A stretch of 64,000 nucleotides of DNA, taken from Pseudanabaenaceae cyanobacterium SKYG29 (GTDB lineage: Bacteria; Cyanobacteriota; Cyanobacteriia; Pseudanabaenales; Pseudanabaenaceae). The stretch lies in contig JANWWT010000003.1 in the NCBI GenBank assembly GCA_025055675.1, positions 1-64,000 of the forward strand, read 5' to 3'. Under the pieces are notes generated by a model, which was given only the letters and a program-made list of their open reading frames with translations, did not search any database and was not told the DNA's origin. Positions 8,901 to 64,000 of the stretch are shown piece after piece. The translations under genes were made by a program, and so were the position numbers. Each line of letters begins with the position of its first letter. Position 1 is the first letter of the stretch.

Positions 8901-9749
8901 TTAACTATTCTGCCACGGCGCGGGGAGATAGACCTTTTTCGCCAACCCTACGATCTCCAACAGACGAATTACACCCCAGGTCAAATCAATCTCCCACCAG
9001 TGCAACCCCGATCGAGCGGATTTGGGATAGGCATGGTGATTGTTATGCCAACCTTCACCGTAGGTCAGAAGAGCTGCCCACCACAGGTTAGTAGAATGGT
9101 CTTCCACATCAGGGAAATTGCGATAGCCCCACTTGTGGCAGGCAGAGTTAATCAGCCAAGTCGTATGCCAGAGGAAAACCGCCCGCACAAACACCCCATA
9201 GACCAAAAAGGACAGCCCCAAACCTTGGCTCGCACCGATGCCATAGATTAGCAGTGCCAGGGGGATTTGCAAGAAGACAAAGTACTTTTCTAGAAAGAGG
9301 TAATAGGGGTCAGCAGCGATTTCAGGAGCATAGTTGCAGTAGTTCTCCAGCAGAAAATGTTCAGGTCTGGCGCGCAGCACCCAATCCATGTGACTCCACC
9401 AGAACCCCCGCTTGGCTGAATAGGGGTCTTTATCGACATCTTCGGTAAAACCGTGATGTTGGCGGTGATTACCAGCCCAGAACACAGGACCACCCTGGAG
9501 TGCCAATGCCCCTAAAGTAACAAAAACATACTCTAGCCAACGGGGTACTTGGAAACTACGATGACTGATAAGACGGTGATAGCCCAGACAAATGCCCAGA
9601 CTACCCAACAGCCAGTGTAAAAATAGCATCATGCCCAATCCCTGCCAGGAAAAATAGAAGGGAGCGGCACAGGCGGCGAGATGAAAAACGCCAAAAAAGA
9701 TTACGTTCACCCAACTAAATCGAGGGGATACAGTCGCAGTCAATGTCAT
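8901..9749 (-). CDS. desC: Acyl-lipid delta-9 fatty acid desaturase
   Basis: A 282-residue membrane desaturase with the histidine boxes HRLISH (58-63), HRQHH (95-99) and HNNHH (235-239), and paired hydrophobic segments before box one and at about 155-190. This is the cyanobacterial DesC type, which introduces the first double bond into C16/C18 acyl chains on glycerolipids using ferredoxin. It lies 74 bases upstream of por on the same strand. DesC genes are often cold-responsive; no specific regulatory motif is visible here. Confidence 0.93.
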   Translation of the reverse strand: MTLTATVSPRFSWVNVIFFGVFHLAACAAPFYFSWQGLGMMLFLHWLLGSLGICLGYHRLISHRSFQVPRWLEYVFVTLGALALQGGPVFWAGNHRQHHGFTEDVDKDPYSAKRGFWWSHMDWVLRARPEHFLLENYCNYAPEIAADPYYLFLEKYFVFLQIPLALLIYGIGASQGLGLSFLVYGVFVRAVFLWHTTWLINSACHKWGYRNFPDVEDHSTNLWWAALLTYGEGWHNNHHAYPKSARSGLHWWEIDLTWGVIRLLEIVGLAKKVYLPAPWQNS

Positions 9750-17668: not shown

Positions 17669-20600
17669 TCATCTCAGGCATTTATCGGAATCGCAGGGGG
17701 CTGGGCCTGCCTCCTCCTGTACGCCCCGATCGTATTTGGCTAGGGCTGCATGGAAGTCGTCAGTCTTACGGCGGGCAAGGACTTCTGCTACTAAACGATC
17801 GTAGGTGGCTTTATCGATCGGTTCAAAAGGTAGGCGGGGGAAAGTTTGATGGTCATCAAAGCGGGCAAGCAGAGCAGCGGAGATGTACCCTTCATCATTT
17901 TGGATGGCTTCATATATCCGTCTAGCGAGGGGCTCAATTTCAGACTCCCTTAGCTCAATTGTGGCGGAGGTGTTGTGGGTTGTGTAAAACTTTTGTACCT
18001 GCATATAGAAGTCGAACTGGGCCAGGGCAGAAAACTTGGCAATATCAATTTCATCTGCACCTGGTAGGTTTGCCCAGGGTACTTCCACGGGAATTTCTAC
18101 CAGCCATTCTGTGCACCTGGGGTCAAAGGGGTCATTGAGCAAGTTGCCCTGCTCATCTTTGTCTGATTGGGAAGGGACAATGTTGTAGCCGTAGTCCAAA
18201 CAAGCCAGTGCCACAGGGTCATCTTTACGAAACGTTATCCGCCGAATGTAGCGGGCTGCTTTGGGAGGGTGCCATCCAGGAGATGCATTTGTCAGCAGAC
18301 TCTTTGTGCCTGCTGGTTGCACAGTTGTACAGCGGTTGGGGCGTTTCAATCCATGCCGATCGCAATAGTCCCACACCACTTCATGGACTACCTGTCGCCA
18401 AAAGGTGAGATATTCTCTCTCTGTCTGCCTGTATTGTTCCCCTTCCTTGCTACTGGGTCTGCCTTCCGCCCACCACCTTAACCAATCCACGCCAAATAAA
18501 TGGACAAAGAAATCAAACAAACCTGTGAAGGATACGCCCACGATCGGGTCGAGTTCTCTACTTCTTTGATAGCGCTCTACGACAAACTTGTGGTTGAGGA
18601 GAGAAGCAACCGCTAGTGCTCCTGCGGTGAATGCCTCTCTTTGCGTCAACCGATCGTTGGGGTTGATTTGATTGAGATGGACTTCTGCCAAGTTGCAATG
18701 AAAATCACTACCTAAAATTTCACCGCAATTGTGAGTAATGCAGCCATTAGCAATGAAAGAGTTTGTAAAGGGAACTTGTAAATCAAACACATTCTCTTGA
18801 GTCCATTCCGTAACACTCACAACAGCTGAAGAAAACCAACTATCTACCACTTCGTCCGAGTAACAACGGCTAGATTGCCAATTGACAAATTCCTGCAGCT
18901 TATATTGCTTTTGCTCAGAGAGAGGAAATCCAATTTTTTCTGCAAACTTCTTAGCCTCAGCACGATAGATAAGCAATCGCCACGAACCCCTATTAGAGCT
19001 AATCTTTTGTGTGCCATCTTTTAGATAGTAAGTAATTCCAGGAGAATTTGGCTTTTGTTTTTCCCTAATACTACTTCTAATCCCCAGGTTAAGTAGTAAC
19101 AACTGAATCTGCCTTAGTAGAGTAAGTGACTGACTGACTAAATCAATATGTCTAGCTGCGACGTTGACTGCACCATCAGCAGAGAAAATTCCTTGTAGGA
19201 AACCAACAATAACTTCCCTAGACTGACAAAGGAAATCGAGTGGTAAACTCTGCTTTGTGGTAAATTTTATCTTTTCCAGAAATTCATTAATTGCTCGCGC
19301 TCCCGTGTGGAATGTATAGACTCCTTTCACTAGGCTAGGCTCATAACCTGTAATCGATCTTACTGCCCGACTCAAAACAGGAAATGCATTTGCAAACTCA
19401 ACCTGGTTAATGTAAAAGACAGCATCCAATCTACCCCTATGTTGGTATATTGAACCATCACCATATAACCACCCAAGCATTTGTGCTTGTTCCACGGATA
19501 TTGTGCCTACACCAAATTCACCCTCTCCTTTTTGAATTAATATCCTATGTTCAGGTGTCAATTCCCTAGTAGCAACCCATCCTCTGTTTGTCAAATGCTG
19601 ATGGTTATCAGTACAGCGCATCTGCATGCCGTTAGCGAGAGTGATTTGATAGGTGGTTTTAACCCCACTAGGAAAAGCAATAGCGTCGGTCAGTGCCGTT
19701 CCCTGCAAACCAATTGCCCTCAGGTCAACTAGTACTTGAAATTTTTTCCCCACAAGTTCAGCTATTGGTACAAGCCCAAGGTTAGTAGCTACTAAGGTAT
19801 CCCCTGAGTGGCAGGGATTCAAACCATATCTCTGTAGACGATGGTTAAGTTCCACTTCAGGCATAGTGGGATGCTTTACTTGTAACCACTCTCTGGCTCT
19901 ATTCTCTGTATACGCTTTCAAGAATTCTTGCTTGATTGTCAAGTCGAACAGAATGTCTGCATTTGATCTAGCTACAGCTTCACCTGCCCATTGAATTGCT
20001 CCTTCCCCTGAATAATACTGCTTTCTTACTGCCTCGATCGTCTCTTCCAATGTTGGTTTACGATGGAACACCCTTGTGTGGTTACTCATCCTCAAGGCAT
20101 CCCGATCGGGGTCAATGCGCCAGTTGCCCTGTTCATCCTGCTGCCAGAGATTGGCTTTGGCATTGGCAAATTCTTCATCTTCACTGGCTCCCTGCCTCAT
20201 GCCTGCGCTGTTGTGAGTTAAATAGCCATCACAATAAAAGCAATGAGCTTCTTCTACTTCCAAATCATAGGTTGGTACATAATCTTGCACTCCTAAACCC
20301 TTAAATGTGACAGGAATATCCATATCTACATCAGATTGTTCGATGTAACGTTCATAGTTGGCATCAATGTCATGGGCACCATTAAAACCCATTTTTCTCA
20401 TTTCTGAGTAAGTGTAACAAGAACGCATCATTTCACCAGGGATGGTGAAGCCATACATTTTCAAACCTTCCTTTACAGCACCTTTAATAGAGTATGGAGC
20501 AATTAAAGAGTTGTACTGCTTTTTGCAAGCAGGGATCGTTAAATTATATTTAACTTGCCATTTTTCTTGGGTAGGGGTCAGAATCTTTAGTCTGCTGGGT

Positions 20601-22261
20601 ATTCCCAAACTAGACAGAAGAACTCCTACTTGTCTGCTAAACTTGCGATAGATAGATGTCAACAAATGGGGAGGTCGGTTATTTACTGCTCCATCACTAT
20701 CCATCAAACCAGCAAGATAGGCAGCTCGAATTTCTACTGTAGCTTGTAAAATCCACTGAGGGACTTCTAAAGGACAGTTAGGTTGCTTGATGTGTTGATG
20801 AAAGTATTCTGCCAATCGAATTGATGAACAAATGACCTTTGCCGTATTTTCGGTCCGAGAGTTCTTACGAGTTGCTGTCACTCCAAACAAAGCCAGAACA
20901 CGATCGATTTTTTGTTGTATCTTTTGACTCAATTCAATTTGAGCAGAGTTCATTGCCCATTCAACTCGACCATAGGGTTTTCCATATTTGTTTCTCCCCA
21001 GAGCTACGTAACCGTTTCCATGAGTAAATCCTATCAGCCAAGCAACATCAGGGGTTAAGTCAGGTATGGTAATTGATTTCGCAGTCCGACTTTGTTTCGG
21101 TCTTTGGGCTGTAGTATCTGGGGGCAAACTTGTCACTATACCCGGAATCACTTGGGTGTTATGTATCAACCGATCGTTTGGCTCTAGTGCTACCACGTAT
21201 TTCCATTTGATCCCCCCCTCAGCATCTGCAAGAACTGCGACACGATGATTCAACGTCGCTCTAGGGAAAGTGGCATTGGTCTCAATCTCGGTAATTTCTT
21301 GGACACCTTGGTCAAATTTTTGCACCACTCTTCTAAACCCGATCGGTGTTTGCACTAAATCACCGACCTGTACATCTTTGATGGGTACAAGCCCCCGAAT
21401 TGTGTGCACTAAAGCATCTTCTGGAAGACATCTCCTAATATTACCTGCTACAACACAAACAGCCGCTTCATCAATCAACAAGCAACACTCAACGGATGTT
21501 AACTTTCTCCCGATCGCGCGGTTGAGAATCTTGGCACACCTTTCGTACAAACCAGGCAGTTTTACTGGGTTAGCCACCCCCCCAAACCCCTTGAGCGGCT
21601 CTCCCGCAGGACGGACATCACTCACATCAACTACAACATCTACTTCACCAGCAAACCGTCGGTCTGCTGCCAACTCCAGCACTGTCTGGTAGGATTTCAC
21701 CCACCCCCTGCGGCTGTCCCCCACGAAAATAAAAGCCTTTTGCGCTCCGATGTCTAGTAAGACCTCTGTCTCCTCCCGCCGCTTCTCTTTGGGTGTAGCC
21801 CCGATCGTGCCTACTACCTGTACATTTAACTTGTTGCGGATAACAGGCAGTTGGTTAATGTATTTGGGTTCTAGGACTGCCCCTGTGCCAGAGCCCTGCA
21901 TTGCCAAATCCATGAGCAGCCCGAAACTCTCCCAATCAGTGATGTTTGTGGAAGTGCAGTTGTAGGCGCCGGAGTAATTAGCGGGGTTCTCTAGCCAGGG
22001 TGTGCCCCCTACCCACAACCACCGTCCAGAGGTAAGGCATTGCAACGATCGTTGGTAGCGGTCAATTAGTGCCGCCTCTGCCTCCGTCAGTTTCCCTAAT
22101 TTCCTTAGTCCCTCCAGAGTGCGTTGACATACATCTAGCCAACTCTCCCTTGCACGCACAGGCGGTTCGCGAGTCTCACCGAGCGGCTGAACTTGTCGCA
22201 GCCGACTATAGGTGCGGTAGAAGACAGGATTGGCAACTGGAGCTGATTCAGGAAAACTCAT
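17669..22261 (-). CDS. nrdJ: Class II (adenosylcobalamin-dependent) ribonucleotide reductase containing two inteins
   Basis: A 1530-codon frame, of which only about 761 residues are extein, the normal size of a monomeric B12-dependent ribonucleoside-triphosphate reductase. Extein parts are residues 1-277, 685-816 and 1179-1530. Visible landmarks are Cys102 in AYNCTS, the NP|CGEI motif carrying the radical Cys1179 and Glu1181, the redox partner Cys1189 in FHCNL, the PAGTKSLLTNASPG loop and a C-terminal Cys pair (PCDSDKC). The reductase makes deoxynucleotides without an R2 subunit. Residues 26-34 (PLGETREPP) derive from a dispersed DNA repeat and look like a tolerated insertion near the N-terminus. 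The gene diverges from argG. Confidence 0.95.
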   Translation of the reverse strand: MSFPESAPVANPVFYRTYSRLRQVQPLGETREPPVRARESWLDVCQRTLEGLRKLGKLTEAEAALIDRYQRSLQCLTSGRWLWVGGTPWLENPANYSGAYNCTSTNITDWESFGLLMDLAMQGSGTGAVLEPKYINQLPVIRNKLNVQVVGTIGATPKEKRREETEVLLDIGAQKAFIFVGDSRRGWVKSYQTVLELAADRRFAGEVDVVVDVSDVRPAGEPLKGFGGVANPVKLPGLYERCAKILNRAIGRKLTSVECCLLIDEAAVCVVAGNIRRCLPEDALVHTIRGLVPIKDVQVGDLVQTPIGFRRVVQKFDQGVQEITEIETNATFPRATLNHRVAVLADAEGGIKWKYVVALEPNDRLIHNTQVIPGIVTSLPPDTTAQRPKQSRTAKSITIPDLTPDVAWLIGFTHGNGYVALGRNKYGKPYGRVEWAMNSAQIELSQKIQQKIDRVLALFGVTATRKNSRTENTAKVICSSIRLAEYFHQHIKQPNCPLEVPQWILQATVEIRAAYLAGLMDSDGAVNNRPPHLLTSIYRKFSRQVGVLLSSLGIPSRLKILTPTQEKWQVKYNLTIPACKKQYNSLIAPYSIKGAVKEGLKMYGFTIPGEMMRSCYTYSEMRKMGFNGAHDIDANYERYIEQSDVDMDIPVTFKGLGVQDYVPTYDLEVEEAHCFYCDGYLTHNSAGMRQGASEDEEFANAKANLWQQDEQGNWRIDPDRDALRMSNHTRVFHRKPTLEETIEAVRKQYYSGEGAIQWAGEAVARSNADILFDLTIKQEFLKAYTENRAREWLQVKHPTMPEVELNHRLQRYGLNPCHSGDTLVATNLGLVPIAELVGKKFQVLVDLRAIGLQGTALTDAIAFPSGVKTTYQITLANGMQMRCTDNHQHLTNRGWVATRELTPEHRILIQKGEGEFGVGTISVEQAQMLGWLYGDGSIYQHRGRLDAVFYINQVEFANAFPVLSRAVRSITGYEPSLVKGVYTFHTGARAINEFLEKIKFTTKQSLPLDFLCQSREVIVGFLQGIFSADGAVNVAARHIDLVSQSLTLLRQIQLLLLNLGIRSSIREKQKPNSPGITYYLKDGTQKISSNRGSWRLLIYRAEAKKFAEKIGFPLSEQKQYKLQEFVNWQSSRCYSDEVVDSWFSSAVVSVTEWTQENVFDLQVPFTNSFIANGCITHNCGEILGSDFHCNLAEVHLNQINPNDRLTQREAFTAGALAVASLLNHKFVVERYQRSRELDPIVGVSFTGLFDFFVHLFGVDWLRWWAEGRPSSKEGEQYRQTEREYLTFWRQVVHEVVWDYCDRHGLKRPNRCTTVQPAGTKSLLTNASPGWHPPKAARYIRRITFRKDDPVALACLDYGYNIVPSQSDKDEQGNLLNDPFDPRCTEWLVEIPVEVPWANLPGADEIDIAKFSALAQFDFYMQVQKFYTTHNTSATIELRESEIEPLARRIYEAIQNDEGYISAALLARFDDHQTFPRLPFEPIDKATYDRLVAEVLARRKTDDFHAALAKYDRGVQEEAGPAPCDSDKCLR
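18728..19813 (-). other. Intein 2 of NrdJ (362 residues, LAGLIDADG endonuclease)
   Basis: Occupies residues 817-1178. It begins with Cys (CHSGDTLV, block A) and ends ITHN followed by extein Cys (blocks F/G), the canonical splice junctions. Block B has CTDNH. The endonuclease motifs are LGWLYGDG and LQGIFSADG, both keeping the acidic residue, so homing activity may be retained. The insertion point splits Asn-Pro from the catalytic Cys of the NPCGEI motif, so the enzyme cannot be active until the intein is removed. Intein DNA is more AT-rich than the extein DNA. Confidence 0.95.
20210..21430 (-). other. Intein 1 of NrdJ (407 residues, degenerate first LAGLIDADG motif)
   Basis: Occupies residues 278-684. 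It starts CLPEDALVHT (block A), has TLNH (block B) and ends YLTHN followed by extein Ser (SAGMRQG), so splicing residues are intact with a +1 serine. The two endonuclease motifs read LIGFTHGNG and LAGLMDSDG. The first has Asn where the catalytic Asp/Glu is expected, which should impair DNA cleavage while leaving splicing. The insertion lies between GNIRR and SAGMRQG. Confidence 0.93.
22162..22189 (-). repeat. Dispersed 24-bp repeat, copy in the nrdJ N-terminal coding region
   Basis: A copy with core TCGGTGAGACTCGCGA on the minus strand, in the frame that reads PLGETREP (NrdJ residues 26-33). The same core occurs at 44678, 44724, 45575 (twice) and 46819 in other genes. Confidence 0.85.
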
Positions 22262-44512: not shown

Positions 44513-46447
44513 ATGGGAAAAACTAAACACCCTGCCCGCAGGCACAAGCCTCCTTCTGTGGTCGCTACTTTCCTGTTCTTCCTGCTGATTGGTGGAGCAA
44601 TTGGCGTAGGGGCAATCGTGACTTATTCCGTACTCCAGGCCTTCCGTCCCTTGCAAGCTAATTTTTCCTACAATTCGGCGGTTCGCGAGTCGCACCGAGC
44701 AGCTGCCTACCAGAGAATCCCTAGCGGTTCGCGAGTCTCACCGAGCGGCTGTGAAGCCCCTGCTCTAGCCAGCTTGACGGACAATCTCCAGCAATTGCGC
44801 ACTGCTGCCCTCAATCCCCTGGAAGCATTCTATCCCCTTATTAAGGCAGAGATTATCACTGCCCTGCTCCCCCCTAGCTATCCCTACATCCATGAAGGGG
44901 CGAGGGGAACCTACGTGCCTATCCTGATGTACCACGACATTACCCCTGTCAAAGAGGTAGACTACGACGTGACTCCCCAAGAGCTGGCAGAACACTTTGC
45001 TACTTTGAAAGCAGCGGGGATGAACCCCATCACCATGGACCAGTTGCTGCGGCACTTAGAAACCGGTGCTAGTTTGCCCCCCAAGCCCATACTTTTAACT
45101 TTTGATGATAATTATCGCGGGCAGTACCTCTACGCCTTTCCTCTCCTCAAACAATACAATTTCCCGGCGGTGTGGTCTGTACATACAGGTTTTGTGGGCA
45201 GTACCCAGGGTAAACCTAAAGCCACTTGGGCAGAATTGCAGGAAATGGCCCAGAGCGGGTTAATCACCATTGCTTCCCACACTGTCAGTCACCGCAACTT
45301 GACAGAACTGTCTCCTGCAGAAATCGATCGGGAACTGGTGGAATCGAAAAAAATCCTGGAGTCCAAGTTAGGGCGACCGATTAAGTATTTCACTTATCCA
45401 GAGGGCAGCTACACCCCTGCCATTAAGGAGCAGGTAGCCCAGGCAGGTTACCGCGCCGCTTTGTCTATGAGTCTAGACCCCAACTACGAAACCTCGGCGA
45501 CGGAATCGGAGGATGTGTTTAGTCTACGCCGCTATGGTCAGTCCCGCTTTAGTGATGTAGTTAAGGAAGCGCAGCAGCCGCTCGGTGAGACTCGCGAACC
45601 GCCGCTCGGTGAGACTCGCGAACCGCGGTGGGCGGAAACCAATTTCGCTGCCGTAGTACCCGTCAAGCAGGGCTTTGCCCCAGTGAATTTCCATAGCTCG
45701 ATCGAGAAACATCAAGTGAGGGTGGACGGGATACGCCTAACCCTAGTGTTTGGGGGACAGCCCGTAACAGCCCATGCTGATAGTCGCTATCAAGTGGAGG
45801 AAATTCAAAAAACAATCCCCAACGCTGTGGCGGCTGTAGATGGGGGCTTTTTCTCCCTAGAATTGTTAGACAGTAATCAAATGATAGGTCCTGTCCTTAG
45901 TCGCTATTCCCAGACGGCGGGGGTATTCAATCCAGGCAAGAAAGGAGAAAATCCCCTTCTGCGGGGCCGACCATTGGTGCTAATTTCCGATCGCACAGTC
46001 AAATTTGTGCCCTATGACCCCGATCGGCACATTTCCCTGGCAGCAGTGGAGCAAGAACTACCAGGAGTGAAGGATGCCTTTGTAGCAGCGGGTTGGCTGG
46101 TCAAAAATGGCAAACCTAGGGATGCCGCTAGTTTCGGCAAACTCTATGGCTTTGATGCGGAACGGGATAGAGCTTTTTGGGGTATCGATCGGGCGGGTCG
46201 TCCCATGATTGGGGTGACGATGGACATGGTGGACTCCGTGCGATTGGGGCAGATTTTAGCAAAAGTGGGCATCTACGAGGCGGTGATGTTAGACTCTGGT
46301 GCTAGCGCTGCCCTGTCCTACGAGGGTAAATCAGTGATGGAATATCAGCCCCGCCCCGTCCCCCATGTCGTAGCCTTGCTCCCCCCCCAACCAGTACCAG
46401 CATCAGAGAAGAAAGACAATACCGATTGGTGTCAGGTCAGCTACTGA
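44513..46447 (+). CDS. Polysaccharide deacetylase fused to a phosphodiester-glycosidase (NAGPA-like) domain
   Basis: A 644-residue membrane-anchored protein. A basic start and one membrane helix (16-42) lead to a NodB domain (about 133-345) with the metal Asp pair in TFDDNY (198-199) and H256-x3-H260 in ASHTVSHRNL. A C-terminal domain (about 375-635) has VAAVDGGFFSLE, GVTMDMVDSVRLGQIL and MLDSGASAALSYEG, typical of phosphodiester glycosidase/NAGPA proteins. It probably deacetylates and trims cell-wall or surface glycans outside the membrane. Four copies of a dispersed DNA repeat sit in the linkers (residues 56-64, 70-79 and 356-371), read in three different frames. Confidence 0.9.
   Translation: MGKTKHPARRHKPPSVVATFLFFLLIGGAIGVGAIVTYSVLQAFRPLQANFSYNSAVRESHRAAAYQRIPSGSRVSPSGCEAPALASLTDNLQQLRTAALNPLEAFYPLIKAEIITALLPPSYPYIHEGARGTYVPILMYHDITPVKEVDYDVTPQELAEHFATLKAAGMNPITMDQLLRHLETGASLPPKPILLTFDDNYRGQYLYAFPLLKQYNFPAVWSVHTGFVGSTQGKPKATWAELQEMAQSGLITIASHTVSHRNLTELSPAEIDRELVESKKILESKLGRPIKYFTYPEGSYTPAIKEQVAQAGYRAALSMSLDPNYETSATESEDVFSLRRYGQSRFSDVVKEAQQPLGETREPPLGETREPRWAETNFAAVVPVKQGFAPVNFHSSIEKHQVRVDGIRLTLVFGGQPVTAHADSRYQVEEIQKTIPNAVAAVDGGFFSLELLDSNQMIGPVLSRYSQTAGVFNPGKKGENPLLRGRPLVLISDRTVKFVPYDPDRHISLAAVEQELPGVKDAFVAAGWLVKNGKPRDAASFGKLYGFDAERDRAFWGIDRAGRPMIGVTMDMVDSVRLGQILAKVGIYEAVMLDSGASAALSYEGKSVMEYQPRPVPHVVALLPPQPVPASEKKDNTDWCQVSY
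44678..44705 (-). repeat. Dispersed 24-bp repeat, copy in the deacetylase N-terminal linker (first)
   Basis: A copy with one change in the core (TCGGTGCGACTCGCGA on the minus strand). It is read here as AVRESHRAA, immediately after the membrane helix. Confidence 0.8.
44724..44751 (-). repeat. Dispersed 24-bp repeat, copy in the deacetylase N-terminal linker (second)
   Basis: All 28 bases match the nrdJ copy exactly. It is read here as SGSRVSPSGC, a different frame from its neighbour 46 bases away. Confidence 0.85.
45575..45626 (+). repeat. Two tandem 24-bp repeat units between the deacetylase and glycosidase domains
   Basis: Two units with identical 24-base cores beginning at 45581 and 45605 encode PLGETREP twice. 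Orientation is opposite to the two copies at the start of the same gene. Confidence 0.9.
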
Positions 46448-46890
46448 TTCATTTCACTGAAACTGAGGCGGAATTTAGTTTTAGTCCTCTGTTTAGTGCC
46501 GATCCAAATTTGATAAGTGCCGGCTGTCCACATTCCAGAGAGTTCGGGGTTTTCCTGGCGACAAAACACCCCATCAGGTCCCTGTACCAACAAAATTAAC
46601 CCCTCCCCCTGCACCTTGACATTGAGGTAGGGGAAATTCTGGGGCAAGGGCAAAAGATAGGTGGGATGGCTGCTACTGTAACCCTCGCATTTTCCCTTTA
46701 CTTCCTTCCCCTTAACAATTTCCCCAATGGGAATGTTCCCTTCCACCTTGCCTTCGATCACAATGGGGTCAGGCTTAAACTTAGGGGCAATGGGTTTGAG
46801 CATCTCCTGGCAACTCCCCCGCTCGGTGAGACTCGCGAACCCCCAGGGGGCTAAGCATAGGGCAGCCCAAAAAAGAACTACACTTCTCAT
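46441..46890 (-). CDS. Secreted protein of a tandem paralogous pair (downstream copy)
   Basis: A 149-residue protein with an N-terminal hydrophobic signal region whose end (GFASLTERG) is encoded by a dispersed repeat copy. The mature part resembles the next gene upstream: KPDPIVIEGKVEGNIP, SSSHPTYLLPLPQNFPYL, GLILLVQGPDGVFCRQ and AGTYQIWIGTKQ align with matching segments there. The glycine-rich GTYQIWIGT motif is like that of bacterial PPC-type beta-sandwich domains. It overlaps the convergent deacetylase stop by 7 bases. Function unknown. Confidence 0.75.
   Translation of the reverse strand: MRSVVLFWAALCLAPWGFASLTERGSCQEMLKPIAPKFKPDPIVIEGKVEGNIPIGEIVKGKEVKGKCEGYSSSHPTYLLPLPQNFPYLNVKVQGEGLILLVQGPDGVFCRQENPELSGMWTAGTYQIWIGTKQRTKTKFRLSFSEMNQ
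46819..46842 (+). repeat. Dispersed 24-bp repeat, copy in the 46441-46890 gene
   Basis: Carries the exact TCGGTGAGACTCGCGA core. On the coding (minus) strand it is read as GFASLTERG at the end of the signal region. Confidence 0.85.
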
Positions 46891-50290: not shown

Positions 50291-50407
50291 GGGGCTAAAA
50301 CCCCGCCCTTTAGGGTCGGTCGGACGTGTTCGGTGGTCGGCAAGGCTCCCGAGGCGTTGCGTTGAAGCGTCAAGAATCTTTGTCCTTTAGGACAAGGAGT
50401 ATGTCAA
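50291..50407 (+). mobile_element. IS200/IS605-type miniature element or relic (no transposase)
   Basis: A hairpin-rich 117-base stretch. Left part: GGGGCTAAAACCCC and a CCGCCC/GGG-type hairpin. Right part: AAGAATC, then the hairpin TTGTCC-TTTA-GGACAA (50380-50395) and the end GGAGTATGTCAA (50396-50407). This right end is the form I know from IS200/IS605 elements in cyanobacteria. A subfamily-2 copy of the dispersed repeat lies inside (50335-50356). The TCA at 50404-50406 is the Uma2 stop codon. No tnpA or tnpB sequence remains. Confidence 0.7.
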
Positions 50408-51093
50408 TGAGCGAGGCGCTCCATCCACCATTGACCGAGTTGGCTGTGGTCTAGGGTCTGACTTTTCTGTAAGGCTTCTGTGACAGCCTGCAACGATAAG
50501 CCGGACAAAACAACAGATTCACCGATTCTGCGGCTGCCAAGGTTACTTTCGATGGCAAAGGCAAAAATTTCCAGTCTTTGGGCATCCACGACCCAATACT
50601 CGCGAATGCCTATTTCTTCATATAGCATCCGCTTGATGCCCAGGTCGTCTGCTAAAGAAGTGTCCGCTACTTCAATTACTAAGTCAGGCGGCTGGTATTC
50701 CTCCAGGTTGACAATACAACTGCCTGTAGGCACCTGCAATTCCAGAAAGTAACAGAACACATCTGGTTGAAACTCGCACACTGCTTCCTTGCGATAGCTG
50801 GTATTCACAAAAGCGCGATAAGGGATGGCGCGCAGTGTGCAATAGAAACTCAGCAAAAGCAGGATGACCGCGTTGATGTCACCGTGCTGCGCCCCCACAC
50901 CCATAACAAGTTGATAGGCTCCTTGCCAGTAATAAGCTTTAGCGTACTGGTAAGCTGGCTGCTGCAACAATACTAAGAAGTCTTCCCAGGTACCAGCCCG
51001 CCAGGTCGGCAGAACTGCAGTAGCGGTAGTCATTTTTTCCTTATCTGCCCCAACTGTGGTTTTATTGCTTGCCGTGACCAAGCAGCTGCTCAT
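50404..51093 (-). CDS. Uma2-family putative restriction-endonuclease-fold protein
   Basis: A 229-residue protein of the DUF820/Uma2 family, very abundant in cyanobacteria. The PD-(D/E)XK-like core appears as FQPDVFCYF and PDLVIEVADTSLADDLGIKRMLYEEIGIREYWVVD, with the Asp, Glu and Lys of the fold. The biological role of these proteins is unsettled. A start at 51033 (MTTATAV) is also possible. The stop codon lies within the right end of the IS605-like relic, so the insertion may have altered the C-terminus. Confidence 0.85.
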   Translation of the reverse strand: MSSCLVTASNKTTVGADKEKMTTATAVLPTWRAGTWEDFLVLLQQPAYQYAKAYYWQGAYQLVMGVGAQHGDINAVILLLLSFYCTLRAIPYRAFVNTSYRKEAVCEFQPDVFCYFLELQVPTGSCIVNLEEYQPPDLVIEVADTSLADDLGIKRMLYEEIGIREYWVVDAQRLEIFAFAIESNLGSRRIGESVVLSGLSLQAVTEALQKSQTLDHSQLGQWWMERLAH

Positions 51094-51145
51094 GTGATTC
51101 TACAACGTGGAAAGGGAAAGAGGCAACCTGAACTGGTAAGCGTTG

Positions 51146-51220
51146 TCGCGACTCGGGAGCCCCGTCGACGGATGAACCAAGAACAAGAATCCACGTCCTT
51201 TAGGACTGGGAGTATGTCAA
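51146..51220 (+). mobile_element. Solo right end of an IS200/IS605-type element
   Basis: From AAGAATC (51185) to TATGTCAA (51220) it matches the 50372-50407 end at 31 of 36 bases with no gaps, including the hairpin GTCC-TTTA-GGAC and the GGGAGTATGTCAA terminus. A sequence related to repeat subfamily 2 precedes it (51146-51170, minus strand). The next base begins the stop codon of the GNAT gene. No left end is seen. Confidence 0.65.
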
Positions 51221-51703
51221 CTAGCCTAGAGCTTTTCTTAGCAGTAAACGATCGGGACGAAACCACCGCTTTTCCACTTGACAGCACTCAAATCCCGATC
51301 GGTAGTACAGTTTCTGGGCAATTTTATTGCTAGCCAAAACGTGGAGATAGAGGTAGGGAAAATGCCAATTCAGAATCATCTCTTCCGAGGCTTGTAATAA
51401 TTTTGTAGCAATACCCTGACCACGCCAACGGGGATGCACAGCTAAATTAAATAGATAAGGTACTCTACCAATTGCCATGGTGCGCACAGAGATTTCTACA
51501 GTTCCGATTACCTGCCCATAGCTGAGGGCAACGACACAGAGATAATGACTATTGGGTTCCTGGAAGCGACTTTGTACATCCAATGCTACTAGTAAATCCA
51601 TGAGGGGTGCTAGCCACTGTGCCCAGGGATAAAAGGTTAAACTGAGTAACTGTCCGATACCGTAAGTATCAAGATATTGGGCGCGGCGAATACACAGGGG
51701 CAT
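51221..51703 (-). CDS. GNAT-family N-acetyltransferase
   Basis: A 160-residue acetyltransferase. The acetyl-CoA loop is RWRGQGIATKLLQ (Q/RxxGxG/A) after YLFNLAVHP, and LHVLASNKIAQKLYYRSGFE closes the domain, like RimI-type enzymes. The substrate is unknown. Its stop codon directly abuts the IS605-like right end. It diverges from purQ with a short gap. Confidence 0.85.
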   Translation of the reverse strand: MPLCIRRAQYLDTYGIGQLLSLTFYPWAQWLAPLMDLLVALDVQSRFQEPNSHYLCVVALSYGQVIGTVEISVRTMAIGRVPYLFNLAVHPRWRGQGIATKLLQASEEMILNWHFPYLYLHVLASNKIAQKLYYRSGFECCQVEKRWFRPDRLLLRKALG

Positions 51704-63534: not shown

Positions 63535-64000
63535 AATTTTTCGGTCGGCGAGGCTCCCGAGGCGTCGGTCGGCGAGGCTCCCGAGACGGCTGCTCCTGCT
63601 GGTTGGTTTTTGCTGGCTACTACTCCCTGGGGAAGCGGCAGCAAATCTGTTTTTCGATCGGGGAACCTGGCTGCTGGGGCAAAATGACCTGCAGGGGGCA
63701 ATTACGGACTTAAATAGAGCGATTGAAATAGACCCCAGGGCAGTCGATGCTTACCTTAATCGGGGCATTGCCTATGAGCGGTTACGGCAGTGGGACAAAG
63801 CGATCGGGGATTACAGTCGGGTACTGGAGTTGCAGCCCCAAGATGCCTATGCTTACAACAACCTGGGAAATGCCTATGGGGGCAAGGGGGAATGGGAGAG
63901 GAGTTTGGCTTACTACGAGCGGGCAGCGCAACTAGACCCCAAATTGTCGATCAGTCAGGTCAATGCTGCTCTGGTTTTGTATCAAGTTGGCAGAGAGGTA
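63527..64000 (+). CDS. Secreted TPR protein, N-terminal part (continues beyond the window)
   Basis: An open frame reaching the window end (158 codons so far). The best start is TTG at 63527, overlapping the pstB2 stop by 8 bases; no ATG or GTG is available before the signal peptide. Residues 6-20 are an Arg-rich stretch encoded by two tandem repeat units, then comes a hydrophobic signal segment (LLLLVGFCWLLLPGEAAA) and at least three TPR units, such as DAYLNRGIAYERLRQWDKAIGDYSRVLELQP. It resembles the TPR gene after petJ. The start remains uncertain. Confidence 0.75.
   Translation, partial: MVRIFRSARLPRRRSARLPRRLLLLVGFCWLLLPGEAAANLFFDRGTWLLGQNDLQGAITDLNRAIEIDPRAVDAYLNRGIAYERLRQWDKAIGDYSRVLELQPQDAYAYNNLGNAYGGKGEWERSLAYYERAAQLDPKLSISQVNAALVLYQVGREV
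63542..63588 (+). repeat. Two tandem 24-bp units of repeat subfamily 2
   Basis: Units at 63542-63564 and 63566-63588 share GGTCGGCGAGGCTCCCGAG and start exactly 24 bases apart. A diverged relative lies at 50335-50356. They encode RSARLPRR repeated twice in the TPR protein frame. Confidence 0.85.

Follow-up and report, generated by a model that had tools for sequence, protein, structure and literature searches.

A 24-bp repeat in the genome of Pseudanabaenaceae cyanobacterium SKYG29 is very probably a non-autonomous mobile DNA of very small size, a fixed unit that spreads at the DNA level in this Pseudanabaenaceae genus. The initial annotation had proposed that such units insert into coding sequence on either strand and in several frames, and this is borne out by the orthologous genes of two same-genus species, which are without them.

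Two repeat families in the window and their copy number

The window is the whole 64,000-nucleotide stretch analysed here. The core TCGGTGAGACTCGCGA occurs in it exactly at 22167, 44729, 45582, 45606 and 46823 and with one mismatch at 44683, and a search of the 64 kb at up to three mismatches found 9 matches, against 0.17 in shuffled sequence. The repeat period is 24 bp, a multiple of three as had been stated. Family A, with the consensus CGGTTCGCGAGTCTCACCGAGCGG, has six window copies, all six inside ORFs, and these are the copies initially placed in nrdJ, in the deacetylase gene (four) and in the gene at 46441-46890. Its sister family B, also of 24 bp (consensus CGCCTCGGGAGCCTCGCCGACCGA) and overlooked in the initial annotation, has four window copies, at 50333, 51149, 63541 and 63565, none of the four inside a gene. 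A variant of family B, B2, has the sequence CGACTCGGGAGCCTCGTCGACCGA, and a third group, C, has CGGCTCGTGAGYCTCGCCGAACGA. The ends of the unit are constant, CGGTT..CGAGCGR in A and CGMCTC..CGACCGA in B. The host-gene names used below are backed by Pfam, and the readings PLGETREP, VRESHRA, GSRVSPSG and FASLTER, proposed from translation of the repeat, were all recovered in the host genes.

17669-22261, - strand: host gene nrdJ (ribonucleotide reductase), 1530 aa
22163-22186, + strand: family A copy in the nrdJ N-terminal region; the gene reads PLGETREP; absent from nrdJ of the same-genus genome G002 and of more distant relatives
44513-46447, + strand: host gene, polysaccharide deacetylase with a phosphodiester glycosidase domain, 644 aa; four family A copies
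44679-44702, + strand: family A copy with 2 mismatches; the deacetylase gene reads it as (A)VRESHRA
44725-44748, + strand: family A copy in the deacetylase gene; reads (S)GSRVSPSG, a different frame
45578-45601, - strand: family A, tandem copy 1 of 2; the deacetylase gene reads it as PLGETREP
45602-45625, - strand: family A, tandem copy 2 of 2; also in the deacetylase gene
46441-46890, - strand: host gene encoding a small protein (149 aa) of unknown family; one family A copy
46819-46842, - strand: family A copy in the 149-aa gene, at the hydrophobic leader region close to the N-terminus; reads GFASLTER; exact 8-residue gap in L046
50333-50356, - strand: family B copy, 3 mismatches, intergenic, within the remnant of a deleted IS605-type element
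51149-51172, + strand: family B2 copy, 2 mismatches, adjoining a TnpB remnant and an IS605-type end
63541-63564, - strand: family B copy, first of a tandem pair, intergenic, directly downstream of an ABC-transporter ATPase-like ORF
63565-63588, - strand: family B, intergenic, tandem copy 2 of 2

The source genome is a single draft metagenome-assembled genome of 2.56 Mb in 18 contigs, 97% complete. With up to three mismatches allowed, it holds 19 copies of family A and 25 of family B (reversed controls, 0), and a pattern covering both families jointly finds 57 copies genome-wide (reversed control, 0). The same joint pattern gave 0-5 matches per genome in 37 other genomes of the family: the counts are 5 and 1 in the two same-genus genomes, G001 and G002, taken in either order, and 0-2 in the rest. 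A similar pattern matched 0-4 times in each of 389 other cyanobacterial genomes, about as often as its reversed control. The nearest named records with matches, an uncultured Pseudanabaenaceae assembly and Cyanobacteria bacterium M5B4, are evidently G002 and G001, respectively, as the places of the matches coincide. Viral contigs contained no exact match to A or B, and carriage by phage was rejected on that ground.

Several other features were seen in these sequences. Several relatives of the 1530-aa nrdJ product (window 17669-22261) align only to residues 2-278, 685-817 and 1179-1529, a pattern that suggests two inteins, at about 279-684 and 818-1178. At 50295-50412 of the window, the two ends of an IS605-type element are only about 60 bp apart, so that the element is a miniature derivative, and it contains a B copy; at 51050-51225, the remnant of a TnpB C-terminus and an element end adjoin a B2 copy. 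Elsewhere in the genome, at 9395-9450 of locus L076 (C6:59.4 kb), a B2 copy lies at the apex of the hairpin that ends a tnpB element. One of the loci L059-L078 carries a CRISPR-repeat-like 40-bp repeat, TGTTTCAGTCCCGCGATCGGGATTCATCAAAAAGAAACCC, in up to nine copies.

Empty sites, junctions and tandem copies

We aligned the orthologues of the source genome to those of G001 and G002 at the protein level, and aligned the junctions at the DNA level as well. Each copy corresponds to an exact 8-residue gap in cysS, murD, pdxA, prmC, cheA, cca (tRNA nucleotidyltransferase), a TrmA/RlmC-type methyltransferase gene, and the genes for an RTX protein, a 230-aa protein and the 149-aa protein. The tandem pair in the deacetylase gene matches an exact 48-bp (16-residue) gap in both L046 and L047, and the three copies in a radical-SAM gene match a 24-residue gap. 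In dnaA, three family B copies lie between the N-terminal and ATPase domains and are read in two frames; copy 3 corresponds to an exact 8-residue gap, and around copies 1 and 2 the length of the region has also changed. Elsewhere the flanks have changed too, and the net gap does not come to whole multiples of eight: this applies to nrdJ, deacetylase sites 1 and 2, a transglutaminase-like gene and a beta-helix protein. The initial annotation had recognised that conservation of the copies as ancestral protein sequence would speak against insertion; at the clean sites, G001 and G002 are empty. As these alignments indicate, the copies are mobile insertions and not ancestral protein.

The DNA alignments place the insertions as blunt and exact 24-bp additions. 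Clean B sites contain precisely CGCC...CCGA and no duplicated base, examples being ctgc|aaac (230-aa gene) and cagg|acag (prmC); these junctions exclude for family B an architecture of 22 bp plus a 2-bp duplication, and the target-site duplication that marks a target-duplicating MITE is absent there. No fixed tetranucleotide flanks family B. Written in the same phase as B, family A is CGG...CGR, and it prefers G^C(TG): of 13 sites, 12 have G at -1 (p = 4e-7) and 10 have C at +1, often followed by TG. The clear empty A sites, in cca and at the deacetylase pair, already contain GCTG. Family A begins with C and ends with G, so that its copies may instead be a 22-bp element that duplicates 2 bp, GC, which fits many sites equally well. 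The search for insertion boundaries and target duplications that had been suggested yields exact 24-bp ends, with no duplication at clean B sites and possibly 2 bp, GC, for A.

Exact tandem arrays of two or three units occur, and copies have also inserted into one another. In a tnpB gene at C2:204.33-204.41 kb, an A copy (0 mismatches) lies in a B variant (2 mismatches), which lies in a B2 copy (1 mismatch) within tnpB; stepwise removal of these three generations, 24 bp each, ends in tnpB sequence. Two neighbouring copies in or beside the tnpB gene are 34 bp long, a unit followed by its own last 10 bp (24+10). The surrounding stretch, 8700-10260 of L070 (C2:203.7-205.3 kb), contains the tnpB gene and several nested and degenerate repeat copies, the 34-bp units among them. 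Copies of a C-like subfamily are found in G002 itself. Its response regulator carries an 8-residue insertion, SFGKAHEP, at a site that is empty in both the source genome and G001, and other G002 sites are less clean. Such a G002-specific insertion indicates that the superfamily has moved separately in two species.

Coding sites and reading frames

The copies avoid genes rather than prefer them. Coding insertion sites number 23 of the 36 examined, against a coding density of 86.6% (two-sided binomial p = 5e-4) that was measured on about 464 kb of stretches, most of them picked around copies. Three of the 36 (C1:822867, 695193 and 851868) depend on gene calls that are a matter of judgement, and were entered as non-coding. 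Outside the 36 stand C1:406518 and 623317, whose common flanks suggest duplication of one locus rather than two insertions, together with the nested unit at C2:204362 and a weak match at C2:87897. A preference for genes, considered earlier, was therefore rejected, since copies are under-represented there; the remark that all copies lie inside ORFs holds for family A within the window and fails genome-wide.

The count of five open frames out of six, to which the initial annotation had drawn attention, is correct for A, and B is open in all six. It is also ordinary: among shuffled 24-mers of matched composition, 80% (A) and 92% (B) have at least five open frames, and frame tolerance as a design feature was rejected because shuffles do equally well. 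Counted frame by frame, as had been proposed, the coding copies use several frames and both strands, with family A in the PLGETREP frame at 6 of its 11 coding sites. This pattern may come from the target, CAG^C at a codon boundary on the other strand, and not from selection; the G^C(TG) target accounts for the frame choice of family A no less well than frame tolerance does.

Origin of the copies and relation to known repeats

That the eight residues are an ancestral or functional protein motif kept by protein-level selection is extremely improbable. The recurrence of the PLGETREP frame would favour it, but unrelated proteins read the one DNA in different frames and from either strand, the same-genus orthologues are empty at the clean sites, and 13 of the 36 examined sites are non-coding. 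The different strands and frames, two of them inside dnaA itself, exclude a motif at the protein level. We give no more credence to an artefact of assembly, which a single draft in 18 contigs might invite: individual copies have substitutions of their own, some lie within others, reading frames are kept, the two families differ in target, and G002, a separate assembly, has copies of its own at other sites.

Two further explanations concern how an insertion would arise. IS200/IS605 elements insert with no target duplication, and REPINs need a Y1 transposase for their movement. An origin as a REPIN/REP-type element that a RAYT (Y1, IS200-like) transposase mobilises, or as an IS605-derived MITE, would fit the absence of target duplication here and the association with tnpB: three tnpB genes are present in the source genome and none in G002, the sister with few repeat copies, and B copies lie in two of the three tnpB loci and beside two remnants. 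However, no Y1 transposase (PF01797) was detected in the source genome, G001 or G002 at E 1e-3, while positive controls were; family B is without a fixed flanking tetranucleotide; and the tnpB elements may be mere dispensable targets. Single-strand folding of the unit is no better than that of shuffles (z-scores +0.4 to +1.2), so a hairpin-recognising enzyme gains no support, and a hairpin element as such was rejected. We consider this origin decidedly unlikely, and a direct role of tnpB in moving the repeat is speculative. Spread by recombination or repair copying from existing copies (template switching, gene conversion), with no dedicated enzyme, is unlikely as well. It agrees with the outcome of the searches for a candidate enzyme, which found neither the Y1 transposase nor, in the same three genomes, a reverse transcriptase, and the tandem arrays and 24+10 partial units resemble products of slippage. 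The unrelated targets, the constant ends of the unit and the sharp G^C preference of family A suggest instead a defined reaction.

For a mobile 24-bp unit, a possible mechanism is as follows. The unit would be moved by an enzyme acting in trans, perhaps by way of a single-stranded or circular intermediate, which would explain the blunt insertion, the fixed ends and the exact tandems; of the two, a single-stranded form would be favoured because a 24-bp duplex is too short for easy circularisation. With eight codons and few stops per unit, genes stay open, and purifying selection would leave mainly those copies that lie in tolerant loops, linkers and termini. AlphaFold models of the prmC and cysS products were poor (mean pLDDT 45 and 39). 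The most specific form of this reading, in which an undescribed enzyme, or a single-strand or circular intermediate, carries a 24-nt DNA as one unit, with neither reverse transcription nor Y1 transposase, and this DNA remodels core proteins eight residues at a time, is one that we put forward tentatively and with considerable doubt.

The published source on the small dispersed repeats (SDRs) of cyanobacteria is Elhai et al. 2008 (Genome Res 18:1484), cited in PMC4390886, PMC2884548 and PMC3116915. By analogy of size and described behaviour, the present repeat is probably best filed as a gene-tolerated variant of these SDRs. SDRs are about 20 bp long, dispersed, in tandem in places and inferred to be mobile. 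The 24-bp unit falls in the SDR range of about 20-27 bp, has 57 dispersed copies, and inserts precisely, with empty sites in two same-genus species and, for family A, a preferred site. A putative difference from SDRs is that genes, many of them with core functions, hold about two thirds of the examined sites here, and that the effects are exactly eight residues. According to PMC4390886, SDR5 inserts precisely inside HIP1, between nucleotides 3 and 4, whereas the target of family A is G^C(TG) and not HIP1.

Rickettsia palindromic elements (RPEs), as PMC2229807 presents them, measure 105-146 bp, have terminal inverted repeats and stable stem-loops, and lie in frame in conserved genes. The repeat resembles RPEs so described in its in-frame fusion into conserved protein genes and in having copies between genes too, and differs from that description in palindrome size and stem-loop, being a 24-bp unit with no significant fold. 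With REPIN/RAYT systems it shares short non-autonomous repeats in many copies (PMC3116915), but neither the Y1 (RAYT) transposase nor a stable hairpin palindrome was found here. The repeat family thus joins the size of an SDR with an RPE-like life in genes.

Copies persist in genes of core function, such as dnaA, murD, cysS and prmC, and do so without breaking the frame. With its very small size, its clear empty sites and the frame kept in these genes, this mobile DNA amounts to a natural insertion scan of core proteins, and provides a clean system for how 24-bp DNA can move.
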